IMG/VR virus record: IMGVR_UViG_3300013136_000052
Location: 1 to 21,289 of that record
DNA length: 21,289 nucleotides
Direction: 5' to 3' (one strand)
Source: a virus
The notes beneath the pieces are model-generated. The model did no database searches. It saw only the letters and a list, made by a program, of their open reading frames with translations, and was not told the origin of the DNA. The position numbers and the translations under genes were made by a program. Every line of letters starts with the position of its first letter. Positions within the stretch are counted from its first letter, which is position 1. This document shows positions 11,191 to 20,104 of this stretch, in pieces.

Positions 11191-11682
11191 TTATTTGAAA
11201 TAAGTTAGTTCGGTCCCATTAGATATGTTACGAACTGATTTGAAAACGCAGACCTTATGCTCTGAGTGATACTCGCACACCAGGTTGGGCGTTTCGCTGA
11301 TACGATACAGTGATCCATTTCCAAGTATAAGCACATGCGATTTTGATTCCAGAAGCGCATTTGGGTTTATCTTTGATTTGAGGATCTTGACGTATTCTCC
11401 CCTAGTTATTTCGCCAGCGTCCAATCTTCGTTCTAATTCCAACTCGCCGAGCTGCGCGAACATTTGGTATTCCTTTGCCATTGCAGACTCATCCGCAAAA
11501 ATGGAAGCTTTCAGCAACGGTACGTTCTTACTCAAGATGATGGACTCACGCATGGTAAGAATGGCAACCGGACATACTTCGACTATAGCATCCATAGGAA
11601 CATCAGTCCTTGCTATCGCCGTGAATTTTCCGTTTCCGAAATTCACCACTTCCACGTACTCGCTGACGAACGGATTAAACAT
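11191..11682 (-). CDS. Degenerate SET-domain-like protein between gp47 and gp46
   Basis: A 163-residue protein that I read as a SET fold, the class of protein-lysine methyltransferases. The N-terminal GKFTAIARTDVPMDAIVEVC (18-37) matches the opening strands of viral SET proteins (GYGVFARKSFEKGELVEEC in the chlorovirus one). The C-terminal GNGSLYRISETPN (121-133) and VFKSVRNISNGTELTY match the region that normally reads NHS-x-x-PN and GEElt-x-x-Y. The cofactor-binding Asn-His-Ser is changed to Arg-Ile-Ser (127-129), and the final Tyr is displaced. The fold may therefore persist without standard methyltransferase activity. Residues 55-115 are a helical insert. It overlaps the end of gp47 by eight bases, so it is probably coupled to the recombination nuclease. 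The assignment is from motif pattern only. Confidence 0.65.
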   Translation of the reverse strand: MFNPFVSEYVEVVNFGNGKFTAIARTDVPMDAIVEVCPVAILTMRESIILSKNVPLLKASIFADESAMAKEYQMFAQLGELELERRLDAGEITRGEYVKILKSKINPNALLESKSHVLILGNGSLYRISETPNLVCEYHSEHKVCVFKSVRNISNGTELTYFK

Positions 11683-13525: not shown

Positions 13526-15052
13526 TTATTTGATCGAATCGAGAATATCATCGTGCGATTCGAATTGCTTGTTCGGTTTTATTGGTGGTGGTTGCTGTGG
13601 AATATCCGAGAAGTCTATCGATGGTGGTTCTGTTGTCTGAACCGTTTGATATTGATTTCTCATTTGATTTTCCAGCGATTGAGTGTCGTCATCGTCGGAA
13701 TAGAATTCGGAAGCCGGGTCTGTTTCTTCTATCATTTTTGCATACTCATAATTGAGTCTGAACATCTTGAAACTTTCATTGTATCCGCCGTCCCTATTTG
13801 CAATCAATTTGACTTTCATTCTGCGTTCCATAGGACCGCGAGTCAATCCGAATAATGAGTCTACCGTATGAACTAAACCGAAAGATTCGGCAACGTCCGA
13901 CATGTTCAAATCCTGATCATCGACTGCATCTCTCTTAATCTGAGTAGCAGAAATGATACACCATTCGTTACGCATTGCCACTGCTCTGAGTTCTTCGGCG
14001 ATTGCCTTAACGTTTCCGTAACTATCACCACGTTCACGAAGCGGTCTCATCAAGTTAACGTAGTCAACTATGATCACCTTGAATTTGATACCGGTTCTCT
14101 GCTGAACTTTTAAGAAGTGGTTTTCGATGTCGACAGCAGACGCTGTTCCTGCTCCAAATTCCTTTACTTCCAAATTTCCTAAGGTCGGAACAGTTTCTCG
14201 AAGCTGATTCAACCTTTCGATTATGCCGTCCAAATCCTCTTCACGAAGGATCGTATCGTACTCCTTCATCGTCATATTGAGGATCTGAGCTCCGAGACGT
14301 TTCATGTACTTTCGGTCAGAAAGTTCAAGAGTTGCAATACCTATATCGTTTCCATGAAGAAACGTTCTGGCTGCAATATTGGAAAGCACCATTGACTTTC
14401 CTACCTTTGGCCTACCTTGAAAGACTACGAGAGTTTTCGGGTTCCACCCTCCATCTAAAACTTTATCGAAGAACCTGAAGCCGGTTGGAGTTCCGACTTT
14501 AGAAAGCTGAATGTGATCCTTCGGATTAAAGAAGCTGAGACCTGATTCTGAACTGGTGAACGATAGGTTTAGCTTTTTGTTGAATTTTTCGCGAACATCA
14601 TTTGTTATTAACTCAACGTTGTCAGGATTGATTTCTGTCGTCTTTAACCAGGATAAGATGTCAATGACGACCTCATTCAAATTTTTGTAAAATACGAAAG
14701 CTTTGGTGTACTTGTAAAGAAATTCGTACGTATGATCCTTTAGGTTGATAGTAAAGATCTTATCGAACTTATCGTCCGGAATATCGAGGTTGGCAAGATT
14801 TGCAAGTTGCCGGATTTCGTTCTTCGTCGGAATTTTCTTGTATTCCAAAAAGAATTTCTTAACTTCTCGATAAAGACGTTGTAACGTATCATCGTTAAAG
14901 TAATGTGCCTTTATCATCGGCACTATTTCACGCTTGTCAAGAGTCTCGTAATTTTTCGGCTTGATGACAACATCATTATCGTCCTCAGTTAAGACGAAAT
15001 TGAATATCAATTTCTCCAAGAGTTCGATATTTTCCTTAAAATCTATTACCAT
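13526..15052 (-). CDS. 41: Replicative DNA helicase (T4 gp41-like, DnaB family)
   Basis: A 508-residue hexameric helicase that unwinds the fork and works with the primase (T4 gp41 is 475). The N-terminal helical domain covers about 1-160. The RecA-type domain has Walker A GRPKVGKS (213-220), the H1a region LELSDRKYMKR, Walker B VIIVD (326-330) and motif H3 SATQIKRDA (368-376). An Arg-rich segment (RGPMERRMKVKLIANRDGG) carries the likely arginine finger. The C-terminal ~60 residues are disordered and Gln/Pro/Asp-rich, a possible partner-binding tail. The ATG at 15052 lies 10 bases after the preceding gene. Confidence 0.92.
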   Translation of the reverse strand: MVIDFKENIELLEKLIFNFVLTEDDNDVVIKPKNYETLDKREIVPMIKAHYFNDDTLQRLYREVKKFFLEYKKIPTKNEIRQLANLANLDIPDDKFDKIFTINLKDHTYEFLYKYTKAFVFYKNLNEVVIDILSWLKTTEINPDNVELITNDVREKFNKKLNLSFTSSESGLSFFNPKDHIQLSKVGTPTGFRFFDKVLDGGWNPKTLVVFQGRPKVGKSMVLSNIAARTFLHGNDIGIATLELSDRKYMKRLGAQILNMTMKEYDTILREEDLDGIIERLNQLRETVPTLGNLEVKEFGAGTASAVDIENHFLKVQQRTGIKFKVIIVDYVNLMRPLRERGDSYGNVKAIAEELRAVAMRNEWCIISATQIKRDAVDDQDLNMSDVAESFGLVHTVDSLFGLTRGPMERRMKVKLIANRDGGYNESFKMFRLNYEYAKMIEETDPASEFYSDDDDTQSLENQMRNQYQTVQTTEPPSIDFSDIPQQPPPIKPNKQFESHDDILDSIK

Positions 15053-15062
15053 AGTTAGTAAA

Positions 15063-15401
15063 TTAACTTATTGCGTAGTACTTGGAAAATTCGTCCGCTT
15101 CGATAAAAATGAATTCTCCCCTCTTGGTCAATGCACCAGACTCTAAGAGGTCCTTAAGTATGCTTTTTATACGATCAAGGAACTCCTCGGATTTCACGTT
15201 GTTTCCAAAAACGTACTTGAGAGTTTTAGCTGAAAACTTAATATCGTTAGGGTCCCAATCCTTTTCCTTTTGTTCGGTGACCCTAACGATGTAAGAACAG
15301 ATTTCGAACATGAAATCCTGGCGAGTTGGATAGTTCGGCAATGATTGATGAACCTTCATTGCGTACTTAATGGGAAGAGTTGACTGAACGTTAAAGTTCA
15401 T
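15063..15401 (-). CDS. Unrecognised 112-residue protein between uvsX and helicase
   Basis: A small charged, mainly helical protein. The C-terminal half (DRIKSILKDLLESGALTKRG, then EFIFIEADEF) has the helix-helix-strand look of a winged-helix domain, but no family can be named. It overlaps the end of uvsX by 11 bases. In T4 a gene of similar size (gene 40) also lies between uvsX and 41. I see no sequence similarity to claim, so that is position only. A helper of the recombinase or helicase is a guess. Confidence 0.72.
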   Translation of the reverse strand: MNFNVQSTLPIKYAMKVHQSLPNYPTRQDFMFEICSYIVRVTEQKEKDWDPNDIKFSAKTLKYVFGNNVKSEEFLDRIKSILKDLLESGALTKRGEFIFIEADEFSKYYAIS

Positions 15402-16599
15402 CGCTAGCTTCTTCTTTTTCTTCGGCTAGGATTTCTTCGCGTTCTTCGTTGATGAGAGCTTCATCATTTTCCGGGTATTTGAAAGTCGGCTTGATGACCT
15501 TTTCGTCCATTTCGTGTAGCACGGCATCGATGAACAGCCTTGGTGTAAAGAATTGCTTTACTGGAACTTCATCACCGTTGTGACGCAGGATGTAGTTCTG
15601 AGCTAACTTGCCAGGTTTGAAATAGAAGACTTCACCTCCGACGTCGAAGCGTACACAGTCCTTCTGGTCATCAGGTTTGAGCTTTGAAAATTCCTTCTCT
15701 GTAAGCTTCTTTCCTCTTCCTACCCCGCATCCTTCCCAGCTTACGTAGTCCTGTAGACCGACGTACGGATTCATTCCCTTTTGGTGAGAAATATGGAAAT
15801 CGATTTCGATCGGTCTAGCGAAACGGCTCTTACGCGTTTTGCAGTGTACGATGATACCGGTTGCAGTCTTGTTTTCGTCTTTAAGTGTGCTCTTACTTAG
15901 CATCAGAATGATTGAGGCTGCGAATTCTGGGCCGCCACCTCCACTTGGGGATTTTCTTGTGTACGCATCATTTCCACTGTAAGTATGATTAGTGAAGATG
16001 AACGGGATGTACATGTTAGAAAGTTCAAGAGTGAACTGTTTGAAAAGCGCACGAAGTTCCTTTGCCCGGAGGCCCATGTCAGCTGGAGTCTTTCCTTTAT
16101 CCATATCGACTGCAGTCTTGTCCGTGTCTAACATGCCCATGGAATCGACGAAGAGCGCGATTTTCATGTCAGGATTCTCTTTCTTAAAATCATTGATCGT
16201 CTTTATCAGGCCGTCAATAAAGAATCTAACTTCGCTGATGAGGCCAATTCGATAGTACTTCAACTGCTCGAGATTACAGCCGAATTTTGGGAAATCGGTA
16301 GAATCGATAGCTCCCTCGGTGTCAACGTAAAAAACGTAGTAACCTTTCTTTTGAAACTCGCGAACTGCATTGAAACAGAGAAATGTTTTACCAGTAGCGG
16401 GGTCGCCAGCTATTCCGATGCTTCTGGTATTCGGGTATCCTCCGAAAAGAGAGCCGGACAGCTGAGCGTTTAGAAGATAATTTCCGGTGTGGATGTAATC
16501 GCTTACGTCGGCGAAGCCTTTCAATTCGAAGGTTTCATTCACTCGCTTTTCGAGCTTGTCTATAAGCTTGTTAAATGCATCAAGAGGTGATTTTGCCAT
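15391..16599 (-). CDS. uvsX: UvsX recombinase (RecA family)
   Basis: A 402-residue strand-exchange protein (T4 UvsX is 391) that forms filaments on single-stranded DNA for repair and recombination-dependent replication. Walker A GDPATGKT is at 65-72, the catalytic Glu region (YVDTEGAIDS) follows, and Walker B IALFVDS ends near Asp152. The DNA-binding loop region includes SPSGGGGPEFAASI. The C-terminus is strongly acidic (NEEREEILAEEKEEASDEL), as in T4 UvsX. I chose ATG 16599. The frame extends to a GTG at 16635, but that would add a poor leader peptide. An imperfect inverted repeat lies just upstream. Confidence 0.93.
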   Translation of the reverse strand: MAKSPLDAFNKLIDKLEKRVNETFELKGFADVSDYIHTGNYLLNAQLSGSLFGGYPNTRSIGIAGDPATGKTFLCFNAVREFQKKGYYVFYVDTEGAIDSTDFPKFGCNLEQLKYYRIGLISEVRFFIDGLIKTINDFKKENPDMKIALFVDSMGMLDTDKTAVDMDKGKTPADMGLRAKELRALFKQFTLELSNMYIPFIFTNHTYSGNDAYTRKSPSGGGGPEFAASIILMLSKSTLKDENKTATGIIVHCKTRKSRFARPIEIDFHISHQKGMNPYVGLQDYVSWEGCGVGRGKKLTEKEFSKLKPDDQKDCVRFDVGGEVFYFKPGKLAQNYILRHNGDEVPVKQFFTPRLFIDAVLHEMDEKVIKPTFKYPENDEALINEEREEILAEEKEEASDEL

Positions 16600-16609
16600 G
16601 TAAAATTGG

Positions 16610-16675
16610 TTAGTTTTATGTACTTTCTTGTACACAAAAGGCTAACCTAGTTTCATTGAAAGTACGAAACTAAAA
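16610..16675 (-). repeat. Imperfect inverted repeat before uvsX
   Basis: GAAAGTAC-AT-AAAACTAA (read on the - strand, 16627 to 16610) pairs with TTAGTTTCGTACTTTC (16673 to 16658): eight perfect pairs, a small mismatch, then about seven more. The arms flank a loop of about 30 bases, with the upstream stop codon at 16653-16655 just inside it. In the - strand mRNA the 3' arm ends ten bases before the uvsX ATG, so folding could limit access to that start. A smaller TGTAC/GTACA hairpin at 16619-16634 would compete with it. Confidence 0.45.
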
Positions 16676-17258
16676 GGAAGGACCCAGCTAAAATGGACGC
16701 ATCGGAGTAATCGCCATTAACTATTTCGTGGAATCCGATCTTAACGATTTCTGAGGAATCGTCCTTTGTAAAAGCTGATTTTGATAAGTTACGAGTGAAC
16801 CGTATGGATTCGTTTGGTCTGCTAATTTTAGTAAGGTCAATAGCATAGCATTTGAATTTCGCAATCGCCGGCTCCGATGTTGTCATCGTGCCGATATAGA
16901 AAATATCGTCCTCATTCAGGCCAGCATCTTCAATATTCAAACCTGCTTCTTCGAGAAGAGATCTCCCTACTGAATCGAAAGAAGTCGTGTCCTTTTCGAA
17001 ATCGATTACATCGGTCAAAAGACTTACGTCCGGCTGACCGGTCGCTGGATTTTCGAACTTGACTCCGTAAATTGCCTTGATTTTTGAATCCTCAGTCCTT
17101 TCGAATGGTAAGATCAGAATGTAATTCTCTCTTGAGGAAATTTTCTCAGCACGATCAGAATCCCGAATCATCGAAATTAGATCGTACTTGCCGCTTCCCA
17201 ATGGTGAAACTGACTTGATGATTTGTGCCGGAGTTAATGGATTACGATTGTTAGTCAT
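16653..17258 (-). CDS. Nudix-like protein, signature partly degenerate
   Basis: A 201-residue protein. The segment RSLLEEAGL (99-107) matches the second half of the Nudix box (REUxEExGU), with the first Glu replaced by Ser. The upstream Gly and Glu of the box (expected about 14 and 8 residues before the Arg) are not conserved. The following strands (YIGTMTTSEPAIAKFKCYAI) fit a Nudix sheet. Nudix enzymes cleave nucleoside diphosphate compounds; activity here is doubtful because of the missing box residues. I chose ATG 17258, which overlaps the upstream gene by eight bases, over the TTG at 17285. The ATG has an A-rich leader. The gene lies between an unknown gene and uvsX in the replication block. 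Confidence 0.6.
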   Translation of the reverse strand: MTNNRNPLTPAQIIKSVSPLGSGKYDLISMIRDSDRAEKISSRENYILILPFERTEDSKIKAIYGVKFENPATGQPDVSLLTDVIDFEKDTTSFDSVGRSLLEEAGLNIEDAGLNEDDIFYIGTMTTSEPAIAKFKCYAIDLTKISRPNESIRFTRNLSKSAFTKDDSSEIVKIGFHEIVNGDYSDASILAGSFLLVSYFQ

Positions 17259-17928
17259 CAGCTTTTTTATTTTTGCCCTGGCCAAACATTCGTTTTACTG
17301 ATTCCTGAATGGCCGCCTGTGTTATGCTATTATTTATATAATAGGACAGCTGATTTAGGAACTGTTCCTTATCCTGTGCGTTCGAATACATCATCTTGAG
17401 AAGAGGTTTCGACGGCATCTTTACTGACACGCTAAGATTGAGATTCGTATCTTCAACTGAGAATAACCCGAAAATATCCTTTGGATTGACTGCTGGTCTC
17501 ATGTTTCTACCCGGAACGGTACCTAATTCCATAGGATTAGCGATTCCCTGATTCTTTGGAGATGATGCAGGTAAAGTCGATAGTTCCTGAAGGTCTGGCG
17601 GCAGATCTGCTTTCACAGCATTGAGATCTACACCAGCATCCTGATTGATCGATATGAGTTCGGCCATGGTCATTGGCGGTTGATCATCCAACAACATCAT
17701 GAGATTGCTAGTTAGATCTTCGGTGTCTATGCTAGTCCCATCGGAGAGAATAGCATTGTACCGTTGCATCGGTCCATTTATCGTGTTGAGCCTTTTCCCG
17801 GGAATGACATCATTCACCGTCACTACGGTTCCAAGTTTTTTAGGTTCATTGGTTTTTACCCATTGAAATTTCTGCGATTGATAGCTGTTCTTGACAGACA
17901 TCAGCTCATCAATATCGAATCCTGCCAT
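17251..17928 (-). CDS. Unrecognised protein directly after the polymerase half
   Basis: A 225-residue protein from ATG 17928. A GTG at 17973 would extend it by 15 residues and overlap the polymerase gene by 20 bases. The ATG has an A-rich leader and is preferred. No family is recognised. The N-terminal half has a small beta-rich module (LGTVVTVNDV, then YNAILSDGTSIDTEDL), perhaps SH3-like. A Pro-rich linker (about 105-155) leads to a helical C-terminus (QDKEQFLNQLSYYINNSITQ) ending in lysines. It does not contain polymerase motif B or C, so it is not the missing second half. Its 3' part carries the only - strand TATAAATA in the window. Confidence 0.75.
   Translation of the reverse strand: MAGFDIDELMSVKNSYQSQKFQWVKTNEPKKLGTVVTVNDVIPGKRLNTINGPMQRYNAILSDGTSIDTEDLTSNLMMLLDDQPPMTMAELISINQDAGVDLNAVKADLPPDLQELSTLPASSPKNQGIANPMELGTVPGRNMRPAVNPKDIFGLFSVEDTNLNLSVSVKMPSKPLLKMMYSNAQDKEQFLNQLSYYINNSITQAAIQESVKRMFGQGKNKKADD
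17327..17344. repeat. Short palindrome containing a - strand late promoter box
   Basis: CTATTAT-TTAT-ATAATAG is a perfect seven-base inverted repeat with a four-base centre. On the - strand, TATAAATA occupies 17338 to 17331 within it. It lies inside the coding region of the gene after the polymerase, about 75 bases before the Nudix-like ATG. It could be a late promoter for the Nudix-like and uvsX genes, a protein-binding site, or chance in AT-rich codons (Tyr-Tyr-Ile-Asn-Asn). Confidence 0.35.
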
Positions 17929-17953
17929 TAGATTGTTAAATTTTTTTCCTATG

Positions 17954-19339
17954 TTATGCAGCAACTTTTTCACGCTCCAATTGTTCCTCCAGCTTTTTCA
18001 TTTCGGCTTTAGTGTCGACACGACCACTGTACATTCGAGTAAGAATCGTTCGAGCTGCTGAATCGAAAGTATTCGTGAACAGTGTATCGTTCTTCGTGAA
18101 TATGACGTGAGACGGAATTTCCATCTCAGGTTTCATCTTACCCATGTAAGCGTCCGGAGAAATGTTGAATTGAATTGTGATGTTCGGGTACATGGAAGCG
18201 AAGTCATCGAGTATGATGTACTTGTAGTATCCTGGAACCGGCTTCATGACGTAAGCTCCGGCATAGGCTGCTTCCTCATTAAGCTCTCTCTTATTGTTCG
18301 ACATGTAACGACCTCTTTCGAGGAATTCGCGGCACATCAAAGTTTCCGTGATGAATACTGCACTGAACACCTTGGACACGTCCACCCTAGCGAACTTTGA
18401 AATTGCGAAAGCTACTTCCAAAAGTCCAAGCTTATCGTCGATCAGCTTGACGAGGCAAGTATCGATGATGTTGTACTTCGCAAAATTGAAAGTATCACGC
18501 TGAGCTTCTAGCATGGAACCGTATTCGTTATGAAGTTTCGTTACGCCAAGAACCAAATAAGCGATGTACTCAAGCTTGTAGTTTTCAACGACCTTGTACG
18601 GTTTGGTATTCATGAACACTTCCATGTAGTCAAGAAGACCAAGGTGAATCGGAAGTTTTGCTTGCCCGATCAATTTATTACATGCCATGTACTTCATGGG
18701 ATCCATGTCCAATCTCTTGGCACGATTCATGAGATACAACCAGTCGAATCCAATGAAGTTCCAACCAGTTAGGAACGGAATCTTCGGCAGAGCTTTGTAA
18801 AAGAATGCTTCGAGAAGTTCACGTTCTGTTTCGAAGAACATGTACTTGAGCTTGAACTTTTGATTGCATTTTTCGAGATACTTGTTGGTCTCGTTTTCCA
18901 ATCGAACGATAGTTTCGGCATCGAAATTTTCCATGGTCGACATCGTGAACACTACGTTCTCCTCATTCACGAAAGTTATGAGGTTGACTTCCATTAAGGC
19001 TTTTGCTGGATCAGGAAATTCCTGAGATTCTAGCTTTACTTCGATGTCAAGGTAGAATTTCTTTGGGCTGAAATCCGAATAGAGTCGGTCGAGTTCCGCT
19101 TGATTCAATCGAGCTTGAGTTAGTTCCTCAAGCCTAAATCGGCTCAACCATTTGCTCGGAGATTTACGTAAGAACTTATTGTCCCAATTCCTGAATTCCG
19201 TGGGATTTGCAGTTACCGTCCAGTTAAAAAAATCGGTCTGTGGAATCGGTTTTTTAATGAACTCGACTTTTCCGTGCTCATCGTAATACGAAACGACTAG
19301 AGCCGATTCGTCAACGTTAAATTCTGTACTTATGATCAT
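17954..19339 (-). CDS. 43: DNA polymerase family B, N-terminal part only (split gp43)
   Basis: A 461-residue protein, about half of T4 gp43 (898). It has the N-terminal domain and a complete 3'-5' proofreading exonuclease: Exo I YLDIE (Asp98, Glu100), Exo II GWNFIGFD (Asn194, Asp199) and Exo III Y289-x-x-x-D293. A YAGAYVMKPVPG stretch (359-370) and motif A DDFASMYPN (378-386) follow, with one catalytic Asp. The protein then ends in a charged helix (about 430-461) where the fingers should begin. Motif B (K-x-x-x-N-S-x-Y-G) and motif C (DTDS) are absent. The next gene is unrelated, so a simple frameshift does not explain it. The second half must lie outside the window. Split gp43 is known in some T4-like phages and in Rhodothermus phage RM378. 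It starts with an ATGA overlap with the preceding gene. Confidence 0.93.
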   Translation of the reverse strand: MIISTEFNVDESALVVSYYDEHGKVEFIKKPIPQTDFFNWTVTANPTEFRNWDNKFLRKSPSKWLSRFRLEELTQARLNQAELDRLYSDFSPKKFYLDIEVKLESQEFPDPAKALMEVNLITFVNEENVVFTMSTMENFDAETIVRLENETNKYLEKCNQKFKLKYMFFETERELLEAFFYKALPKIPFLTGWNFIGFDWLYLMNRAKRLDMDPMKYMACNKLIGQAKLPIHLGLLDYMEVFMNTKPYKVVENYKLEYIAYLVLGVTKLHNEYGSMLEAQRDTFNFAKYNIIDTCLVKLIDDKLGLLEVAFAISKFARVDVSKVFSAVFITETLMCREFLERGRYMSNNKRELNEEAAYAGAYVMKPVPGYYKYIILDDFASMYPNITIQFNISPDAYMGKMKPEMEIPSHVIFTKNDTLFTNTFDSAARTILTRMYSGRVDTKAEMKKLEEQLEREKVAA

Positions 19340-19636: not shown

Positions 19637-20104
19637 TTAGCGAGTAGCTTCCATTGCATCAGTTGACCCGAAACCATCAGGACCTCTTTTGGTTTCAACT
19701 GGAAACACTTCTTCGAGTTCATTACATTCGATAAGTTCAGCGCTTGCGACTGGAACCAAAAGGAACTGGACCAGCTTCATTCCTGGAGCGATTTCAACAA
19801 GCCCATTGGCTCTCGAGTTGAACACGTGAATGTGAATCTCTCCCTGGTAATCGCTATCAACGACGCAAGCCCCAACTTGGAGCCTCTTTTTTGTGGCGAT
19901 GCCACTCTTATTGTGAGCGATGAGCGCGTACCCGTCTGGGACGTTTGCTTTTATTCCGCTTGGAATGAGAATATCGTCTCCGGGATGCAATCTCTGCTCA
20001 CGAAAATCTTCCGGAACGAAGAAATCGATACCGGCCGATCCAGGAGTACCGTAAGCTGGGGTTTTCACATCACGAATCTTTATGAATTTCATCTTTGTTT
20101 GCAT
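19637..20104 (-). CDS. dut: dUTP diphosphatase (trimeric dUTPase)
   Basis: A 155-residue enzyme that splits dUTP to dUMP and diphosphate, keeping uracil out of DNA. All five motifs of the trimeric family are present: I GSAGIDF (22-28), II NKSGIA (65-70, Lys for the usual Arg), III VGACVVDSDYQGEI (77-90, catalytic Asp83), IV GMKLVQF (108-114) and V RGPDGFGSTD (140-149). T4 uses an unrelated all-alpha dCTPase/dUTPase (gp56) for this step, so this is a different solution. It is the first gene of the - operon, beside the divergent promoter region. Met5 is an alternative start. Confidence 0.94.
   Translation of the reverse strand: MQTKMKFIKIRDVKTPAYGTPGSAGIDFFVPEDFREQRLHPGDDILIPSGIKANVPDGYALIAHNKSGIATKKRLQVGACVVDSDYQGEIHIHVFNSRANGLVEIAPGMKLVQFLLVPVASAELIECNELEEVFPVETKRGPDGFGSTDAMEATR

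Follow-up and report, generated by a model that had tools for sequence, protein, structure and literature searches.

A predicted two-gene T4-type DNA polymerase in huge phages, divided at the tip of the fingers

The gene at positions 17,954–19,339 (minus strand) of the window, an entire IMG/VR fragment of 21,289 bases, very probably encodes the N-terminal subunit of a T4-type family B replicative polymerase (PolB) that is built from the products of two unlinked genes, joining non-covalently. This assignment draws on comparative sequence analysis, in which both halves of the enzyme were found, their spans tile the full-length protein exactly, their catalytic residues are conserved under purifying selection, each half is present in one copy, and no splicing element accompanies them. 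Split PolB enzymes are already known, and both halves are already families in PHROGs; what appears to be undescribed is the deep conservation of a break at the fingertip in huge phages together with the dispersal of the two halves. Among open-licence papers, no report of a fingertip split of PolB without an intein was found for huge phages, and the main survey of jumbo phages, in part of its text, calls the PolB of group 2 a classic enzyme (PMC7824862).

The N-terminal half and its neighborhood

The minus-strand open reading frame codes for 461 residues and comprises the N-terminal and 3′–5′ exonuclease domains of a T4-like PolB, palm motif A, and the first helix of the fingers. The exonuclease is recognized by Pfam (PF03104, E = 2e-11), and its three motifs are intact: FYLDIEV (residue 95), WNFIGFDW (residue 193), and KYNIIDT (residue 288), which correspond to DIE, WNxxxFD, and YNxxD. 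Motif A, DDFASMYPN, conforms to the DxxSxYP pattern and occupies residues 378–386, so that motif A starts where the preliminary description had placed it, and the exonuclease is intact as described there. The catalytic aspartate is D379, the second Asp of DDF, which aligns with RB69 D411. Farther along the chain, R440 and K444 align with RB69 R482 and K486, which in the established RB69 structures grip the incoming nucleotide from the fingers.

The Pfam PolB polymerase domain is matched only at profile positions 16–147 of 453, the first third of the profile (E = 3e-13), which bears out the earlier observation that the protein ends early, at residue 461, ahead of motifs B and C. Neither motif B (KxxxNSxYG) nor motif C (DTDS) is present in the N-half or in the rest of the 21-kb window. 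The protein matches phrog_2062 at 6–490 of 502 positions (E = 3e-67).

A dUTPase gene (19,637–20,104, minus strand; PF00692, phrog_135) sits just upstream of the N-half. Directly downstream is an overlapping, conserved open reading frame (17,251–17,973, minus strand) with no function assigned, which is syntenic in four relatives (L002, L043, L026, and L042) and is not the missing half. The preliminary description had listed an unrelated protein, a Nudix-like protein, and UvsX as the next genes. The unrelated protein and the UvsX-like recombinase (15,391–16,635, minus strand; Pfam and PHROG matches) hold, whereas the Nudix-like assignment is not supported: neither of the two conserved genes between the N-half and UvsX (16,653–17,285, the supposed Nudix-like gene, and 17,251–17,973, both minus strand) gave a match in Pfam, even at a loose threshold, or in PHROG. 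A gp41-like DnaB helicase (13,526–15,052, minus strand) was assigned by reading its translation and by synteny with four relatives. The window and four relatives have a gene order in common, namely dUTPase, N-half, two genes of unknown function, UvsX, one unknown, gp41, one unknown, gp47, a SET-like protein, gp46, thymidylate synthase, and dCMP deaminase. The SET-domain-like protein between gp46 and gp47 (window 11,191–11,682, minus strand) matches PF00856 exactly at the cut-off and is likewise syntenic in relatives.

The C-terminal half and the polymerase genes of relatives

A protein scan of IMG/VR yielded 46 relatives of the window N-half, with 65–77% identity. A second PolB piece is present in 13 of the 22 longest, including all ten contigs above 100 kb, and lies 38–50 kb downstream of the N-half on the same strand. 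This C-half begins with a methionine a few residues ahead of LEQQIKSLDLKQNAIKILINSFYGAF, contains motif B, motif C in the form YTDTDS, and the thumb, and is without an exonuclease. The second polypeptide predicted in the preliminary description, one that has motifs B and C but lacks an exonuclease, was in this way found in close relatives, as a separate gene, and the window's own virus would be expected to carry it too. An independent IMG/VR scan with a C-half as query returned 48 loci.

The two pieces were compared with the full-length phage PolB model, phrog_262. The window N-half covers positions 109–497 and other N-halves end at 497–509; the C-halves start at 495–498 and run to about 838. 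Because these spans meet at about position 497, the N- and C-halves tile the full enzyme. The C-half of relative L138 also matches phrog_1918 at 26–369 of 382 positions. In L138 it follows a UvsW-like helicase gene, and in L138 and most relatives inspected a primase gene begins right at its 3′ end or within it (gene names from reading the translations). The halves fall into two clusters, the N-half with UvsX, gp41, and gp46/47 and the C-half with primase and UvsW. Past the PolB match, the C-half of L138, L104, and their relatives continues for up to ~180 residues (~365–541), in an extension for which Pfam and PHROG give no match. The extension is shorter in some subclades, where the proteins have 485 residues, and it is the only part of the C-half AlphaFold model with fair confidence; overall, the single-chain models, computed from 18–21 close sequences, have pLDDT values of 51.6 and 49.0 for the two halves and are too poor to use.

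Residues D379, Y384, P385, and R440 are invariant in 29 N-halves, down to 20% identity, and 18 C-halves all share K20, N24, D98, and D100 (L138 numbering). For pairs with measurable dS, dN/dS is 0.03–0.09 for the N-half and 0.02–0.10 for the C-half; these ratios come from closer pairs within the clade, since comparisons of the window with its relatives are saturated in dS. Purifying selection is strong on both halves.

Four relatives of about 271 kb each (G001, G002, G003, and G006) start at different points. In G001 and G002 the two halves lie 44,295 nt apart, N to C; measured across the contig ends, the corresponding distance is 44,296 nt in G006 and 44,426 nt in G003. This agreement indicates that the four contigs are circular permutations of one ~271-kb genome and look complete. 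Each carries one N-half and one C-half, and none of the four has an unsplit PolB or gives a match to PolA or PolIII-alpha; the split reading, which a full-length second polymerase elsewhere in the genome would have refuted according to the preliminary description, stands. A weak third PolB match in the long relatives belongs to a separate, PolB-like stand-alone exonuclease of ~250 residues (G001:83,823–84,566 and equivalents).

The N-half might alternatively be a stand-alone proofreading exonuclease by now, its palm pieces vestigial and the genome copied by another polymerase, but we regard this as improbable. Small PolB-like exonucleases such as the one just described do occur in these genomes, and the replicase could be a PolIII-like fragment too diverged for Pfam, given that part of the jumbo-phage survey reports a split minimal PolIII(-like enzyme) in the related group 2.2 phages (PMC7824862). 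However, PolA and PolIII-alpha models, which would miss a diverged PolIII-like fragment, found no match in six long relatives, while the positive controls matched. A pure exonuclease would not need D379 or R440, and a vestige would not hold dN/dS below 0.1 across both halves. The invariance of the motif A Asp, the fingers Arg, and the motif B and C residues on the two halves, together with the low dN/dS, argues against both decay and an exonuclease-only N-half.

We therefore favor an active polymerase composed of two chains, which would serve as the main replicase. In this arrangement, the N-half would contribute the exonuclease for proofreading, together with one helix of the fingers, the first, and the first catalytic Asp; motif B, carried on the second fingers helix, would come with the C-half, as would the thumb and the two Asp residues of motif C. 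Each protein would be made separately, and the pair would then join non-covalently, probably via pairing of the two antiparallel fingers helices and completion of the palm sheet. At the nucleotide site, one chain would contribute Arg/Lys and the other Lys, while Asp residues of both chains would hold the two metals. Such a two-chain enzyme is made plausible by the 43A and 43B proteins of phage 25, which copurify with polymerase activity and polymerize DNA according to a passage of PMC2988022 that cites Petrov et al. (2010).

The break and its ends

The break site in the window consists of the C-terminal charged helix (residues 439–461, GRVDTKAEMKKLEEQLEREKVAA) and the stop codon (17,954–18,025, minus strand). 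This helix is one half of the fingers hairpin and maps to RB69 ~481–503. In the alignment, the N-half reaches RB69 ~503 and the C-half picks up at ~545, which puts the break between the antiparallel pair of fingers helices and, in terms of motifs, between A and B; its earlier placement in the fingers, inside the catalytic domain, is confirmed. Summed over both chains, 102–111 residues separate motif A from the Asn of motif B, compared with 113 and 116 in the shortest-fingered unsplit enzymes (S-RIM32 and Mosig) and 153 in RB69. The summed length is close to that of short-fingered unsplit relatives, so the fingers hairpin is a short one and its tip is cut cleanly.

Slightly less probable still than an exonuclease-only N-half is a joining in trans, of transcripts by a split group I or II intron or of proteins by a split intein, to give a full-length polymerase. 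Inteins do occur in this family, inside the C-half of L145 and as halves in PTm1, Lak, and LR756500, and in Nanoarchaeum equitans a split intein reunites the two PolB pieces, whose genes are not adjacent (PMC4104785). Every such intein in the family, however, lies between DTD and S of motif C, and none lies at the fingertip. N-halves stop 0–25 residues past the first fingers helix and window-clade C-halves start a few residues before homology, so that a splicing domain cannot fit at either end of the break, and in most relatives no more than about 50 nt lie between the N-half stop and the start of the next gene. The intron or split-intein signals that had been suggested for these ends were not found: no intein domain was matched on the N-half or on the fingertip end of the C-halves, with the motif C intein of L145 detected as a control, and an Rfam search of 87 kb around both halves gave no intron. 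Non-covalent assembly thus remains the preferred reading.

At motif C itself, the L145 insertion is a mini-intein (PF14890, L145:1484–3655) that is absent from the other clade C-halves examined. In Lak-A2 (L082) and Lak-A1 (L098), the C-half is broken again at motif C by apparent split-intein halves with other ORFs between them, and it is likewise broken in LR756500 (L096) and PTm1 (L093); a VSR endonuclease is among the ORFs between the PTm1 intein halves. With this fractured-gene arrangement, the polymerase would come from three genes.

An assembly error, a frameshift, or a degraded gene could be imagined for a metagenome fragment such as the window but is refuted by the relatives: in all 45 examined from their start, the N-half ends at about 457–469 residues, the stops agreeing to within about 10 residues, and most have the same downstream gene at the spacing given above. 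The conserved stop also speaks against the other refutation named in the preliminary description, a frame that re-sequencing would join to motifs B and C. Motifs B and C are nowhere in the window, and the same procedure does find unsplit enzymes, since most marine relatives fetched with it keep motifs A, B, and C in one ORF (828–838 residues where complete).

Distribution, origin, and known split polymerases

The same fingertip split is seen in Chryseobacterium phages MA9V-1/2, Sphingomonas phage PAU, and Tenacibaculum phages PTm1 and pT24, and, with one N-half and one C-half, in Lak megaphages and the uncultured 460–735 kb phages LR745206 and LR756500–504. The separation of the halves is about 6–9 kb in Lak-B and about 13 kb in LR756500; in Lak-A (about 220 kb), LR756502, LR756504, and LR745206, they are 100–280 kb apart on opposite strands. 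A TnpB gene lies between the halves of MA9V-2 (L078:9534–12,835); it may have been inserted recently, given that the halves of MA9V-1 are about 1.3 kb closer together.

A single clade (100/100) unites the split huge-phage members with the unsplit enzyme of Flavobacterium phage MaF61, to the exclusion of the T4-like and cyanophage enzymes; a scan with the MaF61 polymerase found no relatives of it. By the AU test, monophyly of the split members without MaF61 ties the best tree (p = 0.54), and a tree with MaF61 nested inside is not rejected (p = 0.35). The data would allow a single fission for all huge-phage members. Extending that single fission to the Aeromonas phages 44RR and 25, whose break is also at the fingertip (RB69 about 500–545), is refuted: 44RR lies inside the T4-like group, with RB69, PM2, and PS2, at 100/100 in the N, C, and joint trees, the AU test rejects a single origin (p = 2e-44, delta lnL 263), and the trees contradict a transfer of both 44RR halves. 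The fingertip has therefore broken at least twice independently. The halves being near each other in some lineages and remote in others would suggest fission in place and relocation afterwards.

More tentatively, and with considerable doubt on our part, the huge-phage PolB may have broken once at the fingertip in a common ancestor and been a two-gene enzyme since, the separate clusters making replicase assembly a control point. The N-half could, for example, act as a free exonuclease before replication, or replication could be gated on the arrival of the C-half.

Earlier split phage PolBs were isolated cases, with adjacent genes or rejoined by an intein, whereas in a broad group of huge phages, the gut Lak megaphages included, the split enzyme seems to be the standing replicase. 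With its active site shared by two genes that often lie tens to hundreds of kilobases from each other, the enzyme would have to form from two proteins. The PolB fingertip appears to tolerate a permanent break, and these enzymes would be natural two-part polymerases for work on fingers movement and fidelity. The split also accounts for annotations with two “DNA polymerase” genes or with a seeming lack of motifs B and C.

Compared with the T4 gp43-type PolB (phrog_262), the window N-half has the same exonuclease motifs and motif A, whereas motifs B and C are on a separate gene in its relatives. The halves of the window clade each match their PHROG family near full length (2062, 502 positions, for the N-half; 1918, 382 positions, for the C-half); PHROGs labels each only “DNA polymerase” and leaves their pairing unstated. 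PAU, MA9V-1/2, PTm1, and pT24, jumbo phages of Bacteroidota/Sphingomonas hosts, have the fingertip split and fall in the same well-supported clade as the window, but their halves are 1.2–3.5 kb apart rather than 38–50 kb. Motif C of PTm1 holds an additional split intein, and the phage's record gives the name “intein-containing split DNA polymerase precursor” to that piece alone. The Lak and LR phages have the split of the window clade at varying spacing, with the intein halves in motif C of Lak and LR756500.

Other divided enzymes differ in the site or the nature of the break. In Thermus phage RM378, PolB is in two proteins with the break at the exonuclease/polymerase border, as opposed to the fingers in the window clade. 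The gp43 of Serratia phage PS2 is annotated as two “split hinge connector” genes (L101:1428–4137), with the break at another site, ahead of motif A. Pseudomonas jumbo phage MIJ3 and N. equitans have PolB in two genes, as in the window clade, but their breaks carry split-intein halves for protein splicing (PMC6892783, PMC4104785), unlike the break described here.

The preliminary description had asked how this breakpoint compares with known ones. The split is of a known kind, as it had said, and its novelty is weaker than implied, in view of the 44RR fingertip break, several deposited phages, and the PHROG families of halves. The gp43A and gp43B of the T4-like Aeromonas phages 44RR and 25 resemble the window enzyme in being two polypeptides with a fingertip break (RB69 ~512 in 44RR, ~503 in the window). 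They differ in that 43A and 43B are neighboring cistrons of one locus, whereas the halves in the window's relatives are in different clusters, and in their independent origin.
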